A stretch of 64,000 nt of DNA from Candidatus Flavonifractor merdavium (GTDB lineage Bacteria; Bacillota; Clostridia; Oscillospirales; Oscillospiraceae), in NCBI GenBank assembly GCA_019119335.1, contig DWXF01000022.1, forward strand, positions 1-64,000, in the 5' to 3' direction. Below the pieces are notes generated by a model that did not search any database, had not been told where the DNA came from, and worked only from the letters and a program-made list of their open reading frames with translations. Both the position numbers and the translations under genes were made by a program. Of this stretch, positions 7,981-64,000 are shown in pieces (the stretch's first letter is position 1; every line of letters starts with the position of its first letter).

Positions 7981-8015
7981 GGCAAGCCCTCCTTGCGGTT
8001 TATTCGTCGGAGTTT

Positions 8016-8063
8016 ATTATAGCGCAGCAATGTGTGAAAAGAAAGATAGCTATGATACAATCT
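8016..8063 (-). promoter_or_regulatory. ilvD promoter and shared ilv upstream element
   Basis: On the minus strand a TATAAT -10 lies at 8016-8021 and no good -35 hexamer is visible. Thirty nucleotides further upstream is AGATTGTATCAT (8052-8063), followed by a TATC and a TTCTTTT stretch. The same 12-mer, spacing and T-rich stretch occur before ilvC. A weak -35 plus a conserved upstream motif suggests an activator or other common regulator. Locally GAAAGAT and ATCTTTC also form a dyad around it. Confidence 0.6.
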
Positions 8064-12683: not shown

Positions 12684-12945
12684 CATGGCGGCCTCGTCCC
12701 ATAGGACGAAGCCGCCATGACACTCCGTGGTACCACCTAATTTCGCGGGGCAAACCCGCGCACTCTTGCCCTGATAACGGAGGGTGACCGTCTCCGCCTA
12801 CCTGCACGTTCAGCGGAACTGCTCCCGGGTGACCTTCCAAAGCGGCCTCACGGGAGCTTACACCAGCCGCTCCCTCTCTGCGCTTGCGCGCCGCCCGTAC
12901 TCTCCCGGTCATCGCCTTTGGCCTTCGTAATCTTACGAAAGATAG
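12684..12945 (-). promoter_or_regulatory. T-box riboswitch leader of ilvBN, valine specifier
   Basis: The minus strand carries the T-box sequence AGGTGGTACCACGG (complement of about 12725-12738). A terminator follows, with stem CATGGCGGC/GCCGCCATG inside 12684-12719 and a T6 tract. Stem I features include the GAGAGTACGGG loop-E-like segment and CTGGTGTAAG distal loop. The specifier context is GGAAGGTCACC. The GTC valine codon (complement of 12831-12833) matches the GGAAGGTC context in the valS T-box of the same window. Uncharged tRNA-Val is thus predicted to allow readthrough into ilvB. Confidence 0.9.
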
Positions 12946-23839: not shown

Positions 23840-24085
23840 TGAAAAAGACGCAGATGGGAAGGAGTACCCCCACGGAAGGTGCAGAGAGGAGCCGGTCTGG
23901 TGCAAGGCTCTCCGGCGGTGGGGGGAAGGTCGTCCCGGAGTCCCGTTTCCGAATGCGAGTAAGAGGCGGCGGAATCCTCCCGTTACAGAGGCAATGAGTG
24001 TCCCGCAAGGGAAATTCAGGTGGTACCGCGGACTTTACCGGTTCGCCCTGAGCAAAGGCTTGGGGCGGACCGTTTTGTTTTGCCC
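23840..24085 (+). promoter_or_regulatory. T-box riboswitch leader of valS
   Basis: The leader contains stem I elements (GAGAGGAGCCGG, CTGGTGCAAGG), the specifier GTC (23929-23931) in GGAAGGTCGTCC, and the T-box AGGTGGTACCGCGG (24018-24031). A terminator CGGTTCGCCC / GGGGCGGACCG (about 24039-24072) is followed by TTTTGTTTT. Uncharged tRNA-Val stabilises the antiterminator through its ACCA end. GTC is the codon expected for valyl-tRNA synthetase. Confidence 0.95.
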
Positions 24086-49760: not shown

Positions 49761-49846
49761 TGGTGCGGATGACGGGACTCGAACCCGTACGGCCGTGGGC
49801 CACTAGCACCTCAAGCTAGCCAGTCTACCAGTTCCAGCACATCCGC
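49761..49846 (-). tRNA. tRNA-Leu (GAG)
   Basis: An 86-nt class II tRNA with encoded CCA. The acceptor stem is GCGGATG/CATCCGC, the anticodon loop TTGAGGT gives GAG (codons CTC/CTT), a long variable arm is present, and the T-loop is GGTTCGAGTCC. It is first of two tRNA genes on the minus strand. Confidence 0.96.
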
Positions 49847-50211: not shown

Positions 50212-50727
50212 ATGACGCTGATATTAAGCGACAGACCGCTCCACATACCGGACATGGACCAAACCACCACGGAGCTGATTGACCTGTCCGCTTTGAAGAT
50301 TGCCAACTGTGTGGGCTGCTTTGGCTGCTGGACCAAGACGCCGGGGAAGTGTGTCATCCGGGACGACGCGGTGGGGGTGTACCCCCGCATTGCGGCCAGT
50401 GACCGGGTGCTGTATGTCAGCCGGGTGAAATACGGCAGCTATGACACGGTGATGAAAACCATGCTGGAGCGGGCCATTCCGGTGCAGCAGGCTTTTATCC
50501 GCCTGCTGGACGGGGAGACCCATCATGTGCAGCGGGCTGTGGTCCCCAAGCAGGCGGTGATTTTGGGCTACGGAGACACATCCACCGAGGAGCGGGAGAT
50601 TTTCCGGCAGCTGGTGGCCCGCAACGCCAAGAATATGAACTTTGCCCAGTATCGGGTGGAATTTGCGCCGGAGGATGCCGTGGAGCAGATGGTGCGGGAG
50701 GAGGTGGCGTCATGGGCAAGATCCTGA
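50212..50727 (+). CDS. flavodoxin-fold NAD(P)H-dependent oxidoreductase, atypical N-terminus
   Basis: A 171-aa protein with the flavodoxin-like signature NCVGCFGCWTKTPGKCVIRDD, typical of iron-sulfur flavoprotein/NAD(P)H oxidoreductases, then SPVKYGS-type loop SRVKYGSYDTVMKTMLER. The usual first strand with an NGSPR FMN-phosphate loop is missing; the protein begins MTLILSDRPLHIPDMD. It overlaps the next gene by 16 nt, and that gene does have the NGSPR loop. The two products may work as a pair. Confidence 0.75.
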   Translation: MTLILSDRPLHIPDMDQTTTELIDLSALKIANCVGCFGCWTKTPGKCVIRDDAVGVYPRIAASDRVLYVSRVKYGSYDTVMKTMLERAIPVQQAFIRLLDGETHHVQRAVVPKQAVILGYGDTSTEEREIFRQLVARNAKNMNFAQYRVEFAPEDAVEQMVREEVASWARS

Positions 50728-51317
50728 TGTTAAATGGAAGTCCCAGAGCGCCCCGGTCCAACTCCAAGCAATACGCCGAGCTGTTTTCCCGGGCCTGTAA
50801 ATGGGATACCGAGTATGCCGCCATCACCCGGACCAACCACCTGGAGCTTTGCCGGCGGCTGGAGGACTTCAGCGATCTCTTGTTTGTGTTTCCCCTCTAT
50901 GCCGACAGCCTTCCCGTGACGCTGCTCCACTTTTTAAAGACTCTGGAGGCCCATCCTCGGCAACGCAAGCCCACGGTGTCCGTGCTGATCAACTGCGGCT
51001 TTCTGGAGCCGGAGCAGAACGAGCTGGCGGTGAAGATCCTGGAGCTGTACTGCCGGCAAAACGGCTATCCCTTCGGCTCCGTGCTGGCCATCGGCGGCGG
51101 GGAGGCCATTCTGGGCACGCCCTTCCGGATTTTTGTCCGCTCCAAACTGAAAAAGCTGGCGGCCTCGCTGGAGAGAGGGGCCTATGGGCGCTGGAAGGTG
51201 ACCATGCCCATTTCCAAGGGGATGTTTTTGAAGGCCTCCACCAAGTACTGGCTCAGGTATGGGGCGAAAAACGGCGTCACCGGGGAGCAGATGGCCACCA
51301 TGCGGATCGAGGAATAG
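50712..51317 (+). CDS. flavodoxin-fold NAD(P)H-dependent oxidoreductase
   Basis: A 201-aa protein starting MGKILMLNGSPRAPRSNSKQ, the FMN-binding first loop of the NADPH-dependent FMN reductase family, followed by FVFPLYADSLPVTLLHFLK and a GGGEAILGTPF loop. It lacks the GCxxCW segment found in the overlapping upstream gene. The C-terminal part is basic (FRIFVRSKLKKLAASLERG). A redox partner role is inferred; substrates are unknown. Confidence 0.75.
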   Translation: MGKILMLNGSPRAPRSNSKQYAELFSRACKWDTEYAAITRTNHLELCRRLEDFSDLLFVFPLYADSLPVTLLHFLKTLEAHPRQRKPTVSVLINCGFLEPEQNELAVKILELYCRQNGYPFGSVLAIGGGEAILGTPFRIFVRSKLKKLAASLERGAYGRWKVTMPISKGMFLKASTKYWLRYGAKNGVTGEQMATMRIEE

Positions 51318-51352
51318 GGGCTGTTCTTGTCTTTTGCCCCCATATCCCCTAT

Positions 51353-51584
51353 AATAATGTCTGCTGAATAAACCGCAAAGCGGTTTATTCTCGCGGCGGC
51401 AGCCGCACAATTCCATCAAAGCGGCGCAGAAGAGCCGCTTTGATGGAATTCAGCCATTGTTACAATGCGTAGTTCCACTGGTGCGTGAATACGCACCAGT
51501 GGAACGTGCAAGGGTTTTGGGTGAAATGCTCCAAAACCCTTGCACGAGAACAAAGCTGTTGGCTTTGTTCAGTACGCATTATAA
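51353..51584. other. hairpin-array block: two tandem three-arm multi-branch structures
   Basis: This gene-free stretch is almost entirely self-complementary. Unit 1: closing helix AATAATG+GCTG (51353-51366, 3-nt bulge) with CAGC+CATTGTT (51451-51461), enclosing hairpins 51366-51390 (11 bp), 51393-51406 (5 bp) and 51409-51450 (17 bp). Unit 2: closing helix AATGCGTA/TACGCATT (51464-51471, 51573-51580), enclosing 51472-51505 (15 bp), 51506-51545 (15 bp) and 51548-51570 (9 bp). All six stems are perfect and arms are spaced by 0-2 nt. No promoter, T-tract or reading frame explains it. Structured RNA or mobile palindromic element. Confidence 0.8.
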
Positions 51585-51629
51585 TAGAACCGATAACGGC
51601 CCTGACCGGGGCATAAAGGGGGAATTACC

Positions 51630-52250
51630 ATGGCAGGCGGAATTTTCAATCCCGAAAATGGCTTTTACCGCGTGACGGAGAAGCTGGTGGACCTGGTACT
51701 GCTCAGCGTGTTCTGGCTGTTCTGCTGCATTCCGGTGGTGACCATTGGCCCCTCCACCGCGGCCCTCTATGATGCGGTGGTGCGCTGCCTCCGCCGGGAT
51801 GAGCGCAACAGCTGGGCCATCTTCTTCCGCACATTTCGGGCGAATTTAAAGGTAGGGACCCTGACCACCCTGGTGCTGCTGCCGGTGGCGGTGCTGCTGG
51901 TGTTTCTCCAGGGCCTGCTCTACCAGACCGCGGGGTCGTCGGCGGGCTACGTGCTCTATGTGGCCTATCAGTTTTTTCTCCTGCTGCCGCTGGGGATGAG
52001 CTGCTATCTCTTTCCGGTGCTGTCCCGGTTCACCTTCCGCACCGGGGGGCTGCTGCTCAACTGCGCCAAGCTGGCCGTGGCCCATTTGCCCTCCACCATC
52101 CTGATGGGGCTGCTGCTGGCCCTGTCCATCTGGTGCTGCTCCTATGTCCCGGTGCTGGCCGCCGTGCTGCCTGCCCTGCTGGCACTGGCCCACTCCTGGC
52201 CGCTGGAGCGCATCTTCCGGCCCTATATCCAGGCCCAACAAGACGAATAA
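51630..52250 (+). CDS. YesL/DUF624 family membrane protein
   Basis: A 206-aa membrane protein with about five helices. The start GIFNPENGFYRVTEKLVDLVLLSVFWLF and CIPVVTIGPSTAALYDAVVRCL are diagnostic of the YesL/DUF624 family, often located next to sugar ABC transporters. Here it lies beside the sialic acid locus but on the other side of convergent genes. AAGGGGG lies before the ATG. Function unknown. Confidence 0.88.
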   Translation: MAGGIFNPENGFYRVTEKLVDLVLLSVFWLFCCIPVVTIGPSTAALYDAVVRCLRRDERNSWAIFFRTFRANLKVGTLTTLVLLPVAVLLVFLQGLLYQTAGSSAGYVLYVAYQFFLLLPLGMSCYLFPVLSRFTFRTGGLLLNCAKLAVAHLPSTILMGLLLALSIWCCSYVPVLAAVLPALLALAHSWPLERIFRPYIQAQQDE

Positions 52251-62828: not shown

Positions 62829-62849
62829 TAAAGAACCCCCAAATCAAGC

Positions 62850-62987
62850 CTCCGGTCCTACTCCATTTTCATAGGGCCGGGAGAGCCGTCAAAAAGGAGG
62901 AAAAAACCGCCGGCCGGCGGTGCGGCAGTGTGGAGACCTGTCGTAAAGTCCGTGGGGCAGCCACTCCCCACGGGTGAGAGGGCGGTT
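62850..62987 (+). promoter_or_regulatory. structured, riboswitch-like leader of the ABC ATPase gene
   Basis: Helices seen: a hairpin at 62850-62860/62872-62883; AACCGCC (62905-62911) with GGCGGTT (62981-62987) closing a three-way junction; GCGGCAG/CTGTCGT (62922-62928, 62938-62944); and CCGTGGGG/CCCCACGG (62950-62957, 62966-62973). Joining strands are AAAGT and GTGAGAG. AACCGCC can instead pair with GGCGGT at 62916-62921, giving two exclusive states. It matches no riboswitch class I know. A cis-regulatory motif before msiK ATPase genes is known in Actinobacteria; homology is untested. Confidence 0.5.
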
Positions 62988-63017
62988 GCGGAGGCAGCGT
63001 CCTTACGGCCAAGCATT

Positions 63018-64000
63018 ATGGCAACAGTATCTCTGAAAGGCATCAAGAAGATCTACGACAACAAGGTGACCGCCGTCCACGACTTCAATCTGGAGATCGC
63101 GGACAAGGAATTCATCGTGCTGGTTGGACCTTCCGGCTGCGGCAAGTCCACCACGCTGCGGATGGTGGCCGGTCTGGAGGACATCTCTGAGGGCGATCTG
63201 CTCATCGGCGGCAAGCGGATGAACGACGTGGAGCCCAAGGACCGGGACATCGCCATGGTGTTCCAGAGCTACGCGCTGTACCCCCATATGACGGTATATG
63301 AGAACATGGCTTTCGCTCTGAAGCTGCGGAAGGTGCCCAAGGAGGAGATCGACAAGAAGGTGCGGGAGGCCGCCGCCATTCTGGATATCACCCAGTATCT
63401 GGACCGCAAGCCCAAGGCTCTGTCCGGCGGCCAGCGCCAGCGTGTGGCCATCGGCCGGGCCATCGTCCGTGATCCCCAGGTGTTCCTGATGGACGAGCCG
63501 CTGTCTAACCTGGACGCCAAGCTGCGTAACCAGATGCGTGCCGAGATCATCAAGCTGCGCCAGCGCATCAACACCACCTTCATCTACGTGACCCACGACC
63601 AGACCGAGGCCATGACCCTGGGCGACCGGATCGTGATTATGAAGGACGGCTTCATCCAGCAGATCGGCACCCCTCAGGAGGTGTTTGACCGCCCCGCCAA
63701 CCTGTTTGTGGCCGGCTTTATCGGCACGCCTCAGATGAACTTCTTTGACGGCAATCTGAGCAAGCAGGGCGGCAAGTACCAGATCACCGTGGGCACCGCG
63801 GTGATGGAGCTGGCCGACAAGGCCCAGCAGATTCTGACCGAGAAGGGCGTCGAGGAGATGGACGTGGTTGTGGGCGTCCGGCCCGAGCACATTACCTTCG
63901 CTCCTACCGCTGGGCCTCACACCATCTCCAGCAAGGTGGACGTGTCCGAGATGATGGGCAGCGAGGTGTACCTCCACGTCAACGCCGTGGGCAAGGACGT
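63018..64000 (+). CDS. sugar ABC transporter ATPase (MsmX/MsiK/UgpC type), partial
   Basis: ATP-binding subunit running off the window end (327 codons seen of about 370). Walker A is GPSGCGKST, followed by the Q-loop MVFQSYALYPHMTVYENM, signature LSGGQRQR, Walker B VFLMDEPLSNLDAKLR and H-loop THDQTEAM. The TOBE domain starts near residue 240 (GFIGTPQMNFFDG). Such ATPases commonly energise several sugar importers, here presumably including the sialic acid permeases. No Shine-Dalgarno sequence is seen within 15 nt of the ATG; the nearest GGAGG is 23 nt away. Confidence 0.95.
   Translation, partial: MATVSLKGIKKIYDNKVTAVHDFNLEIADKEFIVLVGPSGCGKSTTLRMVAGLEDISEGDLLIGGKRMNDVEPKDRDIAMVFQSYALYPHMTVYENMAFALKLRKVPKEEIDKKVREAAAILDITQYLDRKPKALSGGQRQRVAIGRAIVRDPQVFLMDEPLSNLDAKLRNQMRAEIIKLRQRINTTFIYVTHDQTEAMTLGDRIVIMKDGFIQQIGTPQEVFDRPANLFVAGFIGTPQMNFFDGNLSKQGGKYQITVGTAVMELADKAQQILTEKGVEEMDVVVGVRPEHITFAPTAGPHTISSKVDVSEMMGSEVYLHVNAVGKD

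Follow-up and report, generated by a model that had tools for sequence, protein, structure and literature searches.

Why should a short intergenic block of a bacterial genome be built of perfect hairpins packed almost end to end, in two sets of three? The question is raised by one locus in the window, the stretch of 64,000 nucleotides of Candidatus Flavonifractor merdavium DNA that was analyzed here as a whole. Earlier suggestions for the locus included a structured RNA and a mobile palindromic element. The explanation that best accounts for the observations, with a probability of approximately 0.82, is that the block is a resident copy of a non-autonomous MITE of the Oscillospiraceae.

Folding and layout of the hairpin block

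A preliminary description of the DNA reported six hairpins, with stems of 11, 5, 17, 15, 15, and 9 bp, grouped within two closing helices, and all of these are present. Perfect arms of 11, 17, 15, 16, and 9 bp were recovered in an arm search, the fifth stem counting as 15 or 16 bp, and the remaining stem, GCGGC/GCCGC of 5 bp at 51393–51406, was read directly. The second closing helix pairs AATGCGTA with TACGCATT (51464–51471/51573–51580) and the first is imperfect. Folded as RNA, the block gave a z-score of −14.48 with none of 100 shuffled sequences folding equally well. Folded as DNA, the two strands gave z-scores of −18.4 and −17.6, equaled by none of 200 shuffles each. The hairpins in the window are real and beyond chance. 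The further 7-bp helix proposed just upstream, ATAGGGG/CCCCTAT at 51314–51352, also exists but is not part of the element, as it is host sequence that also occurs at the near-identical locus of genome G014, and the window is its sole carrier among 116 left flanks. The features of the locus are as follows.

51356..51580, + strand: complete MITE, 225 bp; TIRs and a 5-bp duplication on either side read from the sequence, same borders in relatives, related empty site
51356..51368, + strand: left TIR, AATGTCTGCTGAA; sequence, matches IS ends
51568..51580, − strand: right TIR, TTCAGTACGCATT, reverse complement AATGCGTACTGAA; sequence and copies in relatives
51351..51355: left target-site duplication, ATAAT, within TATAAT at 51350–51355; sequence and border logic
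51581..51585: right target-site duplication, ATAAT, creating a second TATAAT at 51580–51585; sequence and border logic
51356..51458, + strand: unit 1, a TIR pair closing H1 (51366–51390), H2 (51393–51406), and H3 (51409–51450); folds and arm search
51459..51463: unit junction, GTTAC, 5 bp, the length of the target duplication; sequence
51464..51580, + strand: unit 2, AATGCGTA/TACGCATT closing H4 (51472–51505), H5 (51505–51546), and H6 (51548–51570); folds and arm search
51327..51355, + strand: promoter-like site with the insertion in its −10 box, TTGTCT, 17 nt, TATAAT; promoter scan
51630..52250, + strand: downstream gene, DUF624 protein (PF04854, E = 3.6e-14), starting 45 nt past the right duplication
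50712..51317, + strand: upstream co-directional gene, 201 aa, without a Pfam match at E 0.001

The element was oriented by its −35-facing end. The two TIRs of the window copy, AATGTCTGCTGAA and AATGCGTACTGAA, are alike at 10 of 13 positions. H6 is shortened in this copy, and 87 of 120 copies with paired ends are 254–259 bp long. No open reading frame of at least 60 aa lies inside 51356–51580; the frames at 50801–51367, 50934–51419, and 51457–51675 cross from or into the flanks. Other structured features occur elsewhere in the window. A perfect inverted repeat of 92 bp (49670–49761/50019–50110) holds two tRNA genes that face apart, with a third tRNA gene nearby at 49764–49846, and Rfam places a malK-I RNA at 62843–63023 and T-box leaders at 23842–24053 and 12699–12921.

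Target duplication and empty sites

The copies share the ends AATGTCTGCTGAA on the left and TTCAGTACGCATT on the right. The base beside the left end was A in all 62 of the copies tabulated first and that beside the right end was T in 98%, whereas the outer positions varied. Thus, the A and the T belong with the element and the duplication comprises the five bases ANNNT. Exact 5-bp duplications were observed in 79 of the 120 paired copies, a set in which the right end was picked with the duplication included in the score; an earlier set in which the right end was picked regardless of duplication gave 49 of 62. Only 4 bp matched in 11 of the 120 copies, neither an exact 4-bp nor an exact 5-bp duplication was evident in 30, and in one copy the match extends to 6 bp. 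Differing targets are duplicated as well, among them TATTGTA, TATGATA, TATACTA, and TACAATA.

Sites that lack the element also were recovered. Genome G007 possesses TTGCGC-n18-TATAATGAGGCCC with a single TATAAT at the orthologous site that in locus L099 of genome G015 is filled as TATAAT, 257 bp of element, and ATAATGAGGCCC. Genome G004 similarly has a single intact TATAAT at the site equivalent to that in L099. A second empty site, less clean, emerged from the comparison of L172 with L154.

Dispersed copies

The genome of the window contains one full copy. Matches at E < 1e-10 were obtained in 19 of 149 genomes, the window's own included, and 14 of these are among the 20 genomes of the genus; the threshold matters as the search was run at E 10, at which every genome lists something. 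The pattern TANNNTAATGNSTRCTGAAYA, which combines target and end with one mismatch allowed, was present in 15 of the 20 genus genomes compared to none of the 20 for the reversed-pattern control. At least 119 stretches of named genomes contain the left end, including genomes of Flavonifractor, Pseudoflavonifractor, Intestinimonas, Oscillibacter, and 'Candidatus Galloscillospira', some of the stretches being ends of a related IS. The element is multicopy, with several copies in many genus genomes. In G014, in which the neighboring proteins are 96% and 99% identical, the same insertion is present with an internal deletion. Phages and plasmids queried by blastn with one copy produced no match, and neither did viral contigs searched with the exact left-end pattern. 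Two candidates were set aside: a similarity at 7988–8022 of the window was judged a promoter-leader look-alike and left out of the copy count, and an apparent element of 3,088 bp in L296 proved on reading to be two neighboring copies. No paper linking MITEs to Oscillospiraceae or Flavonifractor was retrieved from the literature library searched.

Dispersed copies had been proposed as the test of a mobile element, and the scattered relatives across the Oscillospiraceae, together with the TIRs, the 5-bp duplication, and the empty site, bear out mobility. The element is short (below ~600 bp), lacks a transposase gene, possesses TIRs and a target-site duplication, shares its ends with an IS, and is multicopy, which are the attributes of a MITE.

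Maintenance of pairing between the arms

The conservation of the hairpins was assessed in an alignment of 89 of the 120 copies (235–262 bp, with at least three of five duplication positions matching), of which 69 remained after a 92% redundancy filter. Counted from both strands, the stems of the 69 copies contain 5987 Watson-Crick, 197 G-T, 189 A-C, and 289 other pairs, and Watson-Crick pairs account for 89.9% of the total compared to 78.9% with shuffled columns. Ten comparisons of copies that are 97–99.9% identical disclosed 24 changes in a single arm and no double changes. Copies that are 70–80% identical differed by 1577 single and 1097 double changes. The comparisons in both ranges are non-independent. 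The view that perfect stems imply selection on pairing therefore holds in part: pairing is kept over the long term, yet in young copies it erodes through changes to single arms. We read this as conservation of pairing at the DNA level in the mobile lineage and not in each resident copy.

The stems could instead be a mutational by-product of template switching between the arms of quasi-palindromes that arises free of selection. Such switching is described as both creating and maintaining hairpins in the portions of the two sources drawn on here (PMC8794818; PMC7202029), and the mismatches display no clear G-U preference. However, the 24 single changes versus no double changes indicate that resident copies are not repaired quickly, and the three-arm architecture is kept as well, which is left unexplained by repair alone. 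A wholly mutational origin of the stems is accordingly rather unlikely, while template-switch repair may contribute to the pairing in the MITE.

Insertion into −10 boxes

The block had been considered devoid of a promoter, which is wrong: TTGTCT-17-TATAAT at 51327–51355 adjoins the left end, and the promoter scan that located this site found one compared to 0.5 expected in shuffles. Target preference was evaluated at 86 independent sites, derived from 94 of the 120 copies (at least four of five duplication positions matching, long flanks) by merging similar flanks. The target conformed to TANNNT at 78 sites and was TATAAT at 42, with TATAAT on the opposite strand at 7. TTG stood upstream at a spacing of 16–18 nt at 30 sites, compared to 14 for the mirror and 0 to 7 for shifted controls. 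The extended −10 motif TGn was present at 23 sites (mirror, 9). At the 7 reverse targets, TTG was on the other strand in 5. Loci L217–L335 had been retrieved by means of a pattern that includes the final T of the target, and some of L194–L206 by means of TANNNTA; the 50 independent sites fetched without target bases gave TANNNT at 44, TATAAT at 25, and the reverse at 2, with TTG at 20 (mirror, 6) and TGn at 12 (mirror, 6). Control sites in the same sequences were compared with 87 sites, as the right flank was not required in this case. TTG lay upstream of 324 of 3075 control TANNNTA sites and of 77 of 182 control TATAATA sites, the latter proportion being similar to that for TATAAT targets of the element (21 of 42). 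Because TATAATA controls have TTG as frequently, a preference for TATAAT alone could explain the placement at promoters. The element sits in promoter-like sites, and a taste for the sequence TATAAT could itself suffice to put it there.

Gene starts (SD-like, at least 120 codons) were situated within 60 nt on the right side in 44 and on the left side in 18 of the 87 copies among the 120 that were used for this count. These start-codon counts replaced an assignment of gene orientation by longest open frame (69 away, 44 toward, n = 120) that was noisy. Overall, the MITE has TIRs, duplicates ANNNT upon insertion, and occupies −10-like boxes (TANNNT, mostly TATAAT), and in its usual orientation the host −35 and −10 boxes abut the left end while the duplicated −10 box is at the right end beside the gene. 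The rebuilt promoter proximal to the gene is weak on paper, 24 of the 66 copies of full length having TTG at a spacing of 17 nt and the window copy having TGTTGG at the rebuilt −35 position.

The strong orientation bias (42 versus 7) and the proximity of gene starts on the right side are what might be anticipated if the element were a promoter or insulator cassette selected by the host, in which the −10/−35 layout or a cruciform tunes the downstream gene. Left ends that lack a paired right end, away from contig edges, are also relevant: 39 of 47 are followed within 350 nt by an SD-preceded frame of at least 100 codons. However, this list is uncurated and the count uncontrolled, and the left end itself was used to retrieve the loci. 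At least one entry is spurious (L200 1045), and others are the separate element in L222 described below and the near-complete or short copies of L166 and L304. The partial left ends fit the decay of copies into gene leaders and no more. Moreover, partial copies are common and presence between species of the genus is patchy, so that selection of the element as a host cassette is improbable.

Transcribed RNA and single-strand mobility as alternatives

Features of the MITE could also suit a structured non-coding or leader RNA made from the left-end promoter. The promoter-like site points into the element, a gene start often is just downstream, stems covary (H4 shows as many as 24 additional types of Watson-Crick pair), and mismatches confined to single copies lean toward G-T (39:22). 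However, the pairs that RNA would tolerate are not favored: G-T and A-C pairs are near equal in number (197:189), whereas a control set of 30 tRNAs taken from the same sequences has 27 G-T and no A-C pairs in its acceptor and T stems. The ratio of G-T to A-C was 13:14, 5:7, and 4:6 in subfamily consensuses, and this balance is not merely due to the decay of dead copies. States present in at least four copies gave 22:19. A structure counted on the + strand only in 89 copies gave 312 G-T and 239 A-C, the strand-symmetric count of 197:189 being preferred; both this ratio and that of 39:22 for single-copy mismatches are far from the tRNA pattern. Individual helices vary, with ratios of 16:5 for H1, 11:29 for the first closing helix, 24:42 for H4, and 36:22 for H5. 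Thus, pairing is not maintained as + strand RNA, although transcription of both strands with selection on each would likewise yield near-equal counts. No Rfam family covers the block at the gathering cut-off, and without the cut-off (E 5) there were ten matches to microRNA families and one to an sRNA, all 11 below the cut-offs of their families. In view of these data, of the dispersal of copies flanked by target duplications, and of the empty site, the suggestion of a structured RNA is not supported, and we regard it as very improbable.

Finally, movement as a REP/REPIN-type palindromic repeat by a Y1 transposase can be assigned a negligible probability even though the element is intergenic, palindromic, and dispersed, since it has 5-bp duplications at both ends and TIRs in common with DDE-type IS, and neither target duplication nor such TIRs are expected of Y1 enzymes, which perform single-strand transposition.

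Origin of the two units

The two three-arm structures of the MITE are probably two units, brought together long ago by tandem insertion. The first unit ends in CATT and the second starts with AATG, with exactly five bases, GTTAC, between them, which matches the gap that tandem insertion leaves. Locus L324 has a second left end directly after the right TATAAT of one copy. In L222, from an Eubacteriales MAG, positions 179–303 form a 125-bp element with a 4-bp duplication, AAGT, and related ends. Like the window MITE, it comprises three hairpins closed by similar ends, one hairpin having a GCAAGG motif, but it is a single unit, has the shorter duplication, and was represented by one copy in the fetched loci. 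The L222 element is a possible single-unit relative of the MITE. The start of another hairpin-rich element, with the similar end AATGTCTACTGAACAA and the target TACCGT, was noted in L197 (2573–2681), where it is cut by the contig end; no further copy of this type was detected among the fetched loci.

Candidate mobilizer

Ends similar to those of the MITE flank a transposase of the IS5 family (NF033578, DUF772, DDE_Tnp_1_2). In an IS on plasmid pY3-3 of Enterococcus lactis, the ends AATGTCTACTGAATAA and AATGTCTGCTGAATAA surround an NF033578 transposase. Its right end is identical to the left end of the window copy over 16 bases and its left end at 15 of 16, and the target is likewise of the form T-A...T. 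Unlike the MITE, this IS is 1.6 kb in length with a transposase gene, generates a 4-bp and not a 5-bp duplication, and shows no hairpin array. An IS end from the Oscillospiraceae, AATGTCTACTGAATAAACCGCAAAACGG (L269), matches the window copy at 26 of 28 bases and is followed by a transposase N-terminus, and the 17-nt sequence CAAAAACCTTGCACTTG is common to the IS leader in G173 and H5 of the copy in L089. On sequence comparison, these matches show that the MITE ends and part of one hairpin are held in common with an IS bearing an IS5-family DDE transposase.

IS or IS-like ends co-occur with the element in G070, G006 (ends only), and the MAG of L335; the G006 contigs break inside the IS-like ends. 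An IS-leader query aligned at 87.5% with 48 bases of an Enterococcus faecalis plasmid, in a region lacking an annotated transposase. A recognizable transposase of the family was found in 6 of 119 genomes, one of them in the genus (G005). None was found in the 81.6%-complete genome of the window or in the 14 genus genomes with strong matches, and a multi-copy IS may be lost from short-read assemblies. No complete autonomous element flanked by a 5-bp duplication was found in a search for one. Mobilization of the MITE in trans is likely to be by the IS5-type transposase or by a closely related enzyme whose stagger is 5 bp. The two IS copies in which both ends are visible have 4-bp duplications (ATTT), so that the duplications of the IS and the MITE are not equal in length; as the former leaves 4 bp and the latter 5 bp, the exact mobilizer is unproven.

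A model for the element

Ordinary double-strand transposition of the MITE would be effected by a transposase acting in trans, and the duplicated box would leave promoter parts on both sides of the insertion, which would explain the survival of insertions in this orientation. The arms might stay complementary as DNA by forming a cruciform, as single-strand hairpins during replication or transposition, or through template-switch repair. Resident copies would decay, and left ends could persist in gene leaders. Five genus genomes (L161, L174, L186, L199, and L200) have a promoter with a left-end relic, TTGACAG...TATGATAATGTCTGCTGAATC, followed by a leader with a CCCGCGG hairpin; this relic is perhaps an old copy that turned into a fixed leader. 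More speculatively, and with low probability, the transposon may target the −10 box of active promoters, possibly by way of open-complex DNA that is melted or supercoiled, in a preferred orientation in which the 5-bp stagger duplicates the −10 box and the host gene keeps a promoter, the array of DNA that extrudes hairpins being selected for this lifestyle.

The element constitutes a new MITE family of an ordinary kind with an unusual target, an orientation bias, and an all-hairpin body. A function for the host is unproven. The element illustrates how a parasite can occupy a promoter exactly and perhaps still be tolerated, because duplication of the −10 box keeps parts of a promoter to the left and to the right of it. 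It is also likely to give rise to new 5′ leaders in gut bacteria. Further, it provides a clean case in which selection for DNA folding can be weighed against template-switch mutation as the means by which mobile DNA keeps its hairpins, given that the comparison of G-U and A-C pairs makes selection on + strand RNA unlikely.

Comparison with known systems

Among hairpin-forming repeats, bcr1 is reportedly the subject of work by Okstad et al. in 2004. It is a repeat of ~150 bp in the Bacillus cereus group that is mobile-element-like and has a conserved secondary structure, according to the part of the source relied on here (PMC2267715). The host is different from that of the window MITE, and the two are likened by description. 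The IS-derived bacterial MITEs, including Correia, RUP, BOX, and others, within the portion of the source considered (PMC10969869) are similarly short, without an open reading frame, bounded by inverted ends and target-site duplications, and intergenic, and they carry or touch promoters. That portion describes promoters that are carried by MITEs, rather than targeting of the −10 box. By comparison with these MITEs as so described, the element studied here is distinguished in that the −10 box itself is the target, with an orientation bias of 42:7, and in that nearly all of its body consists of six hairpins in two fused units.
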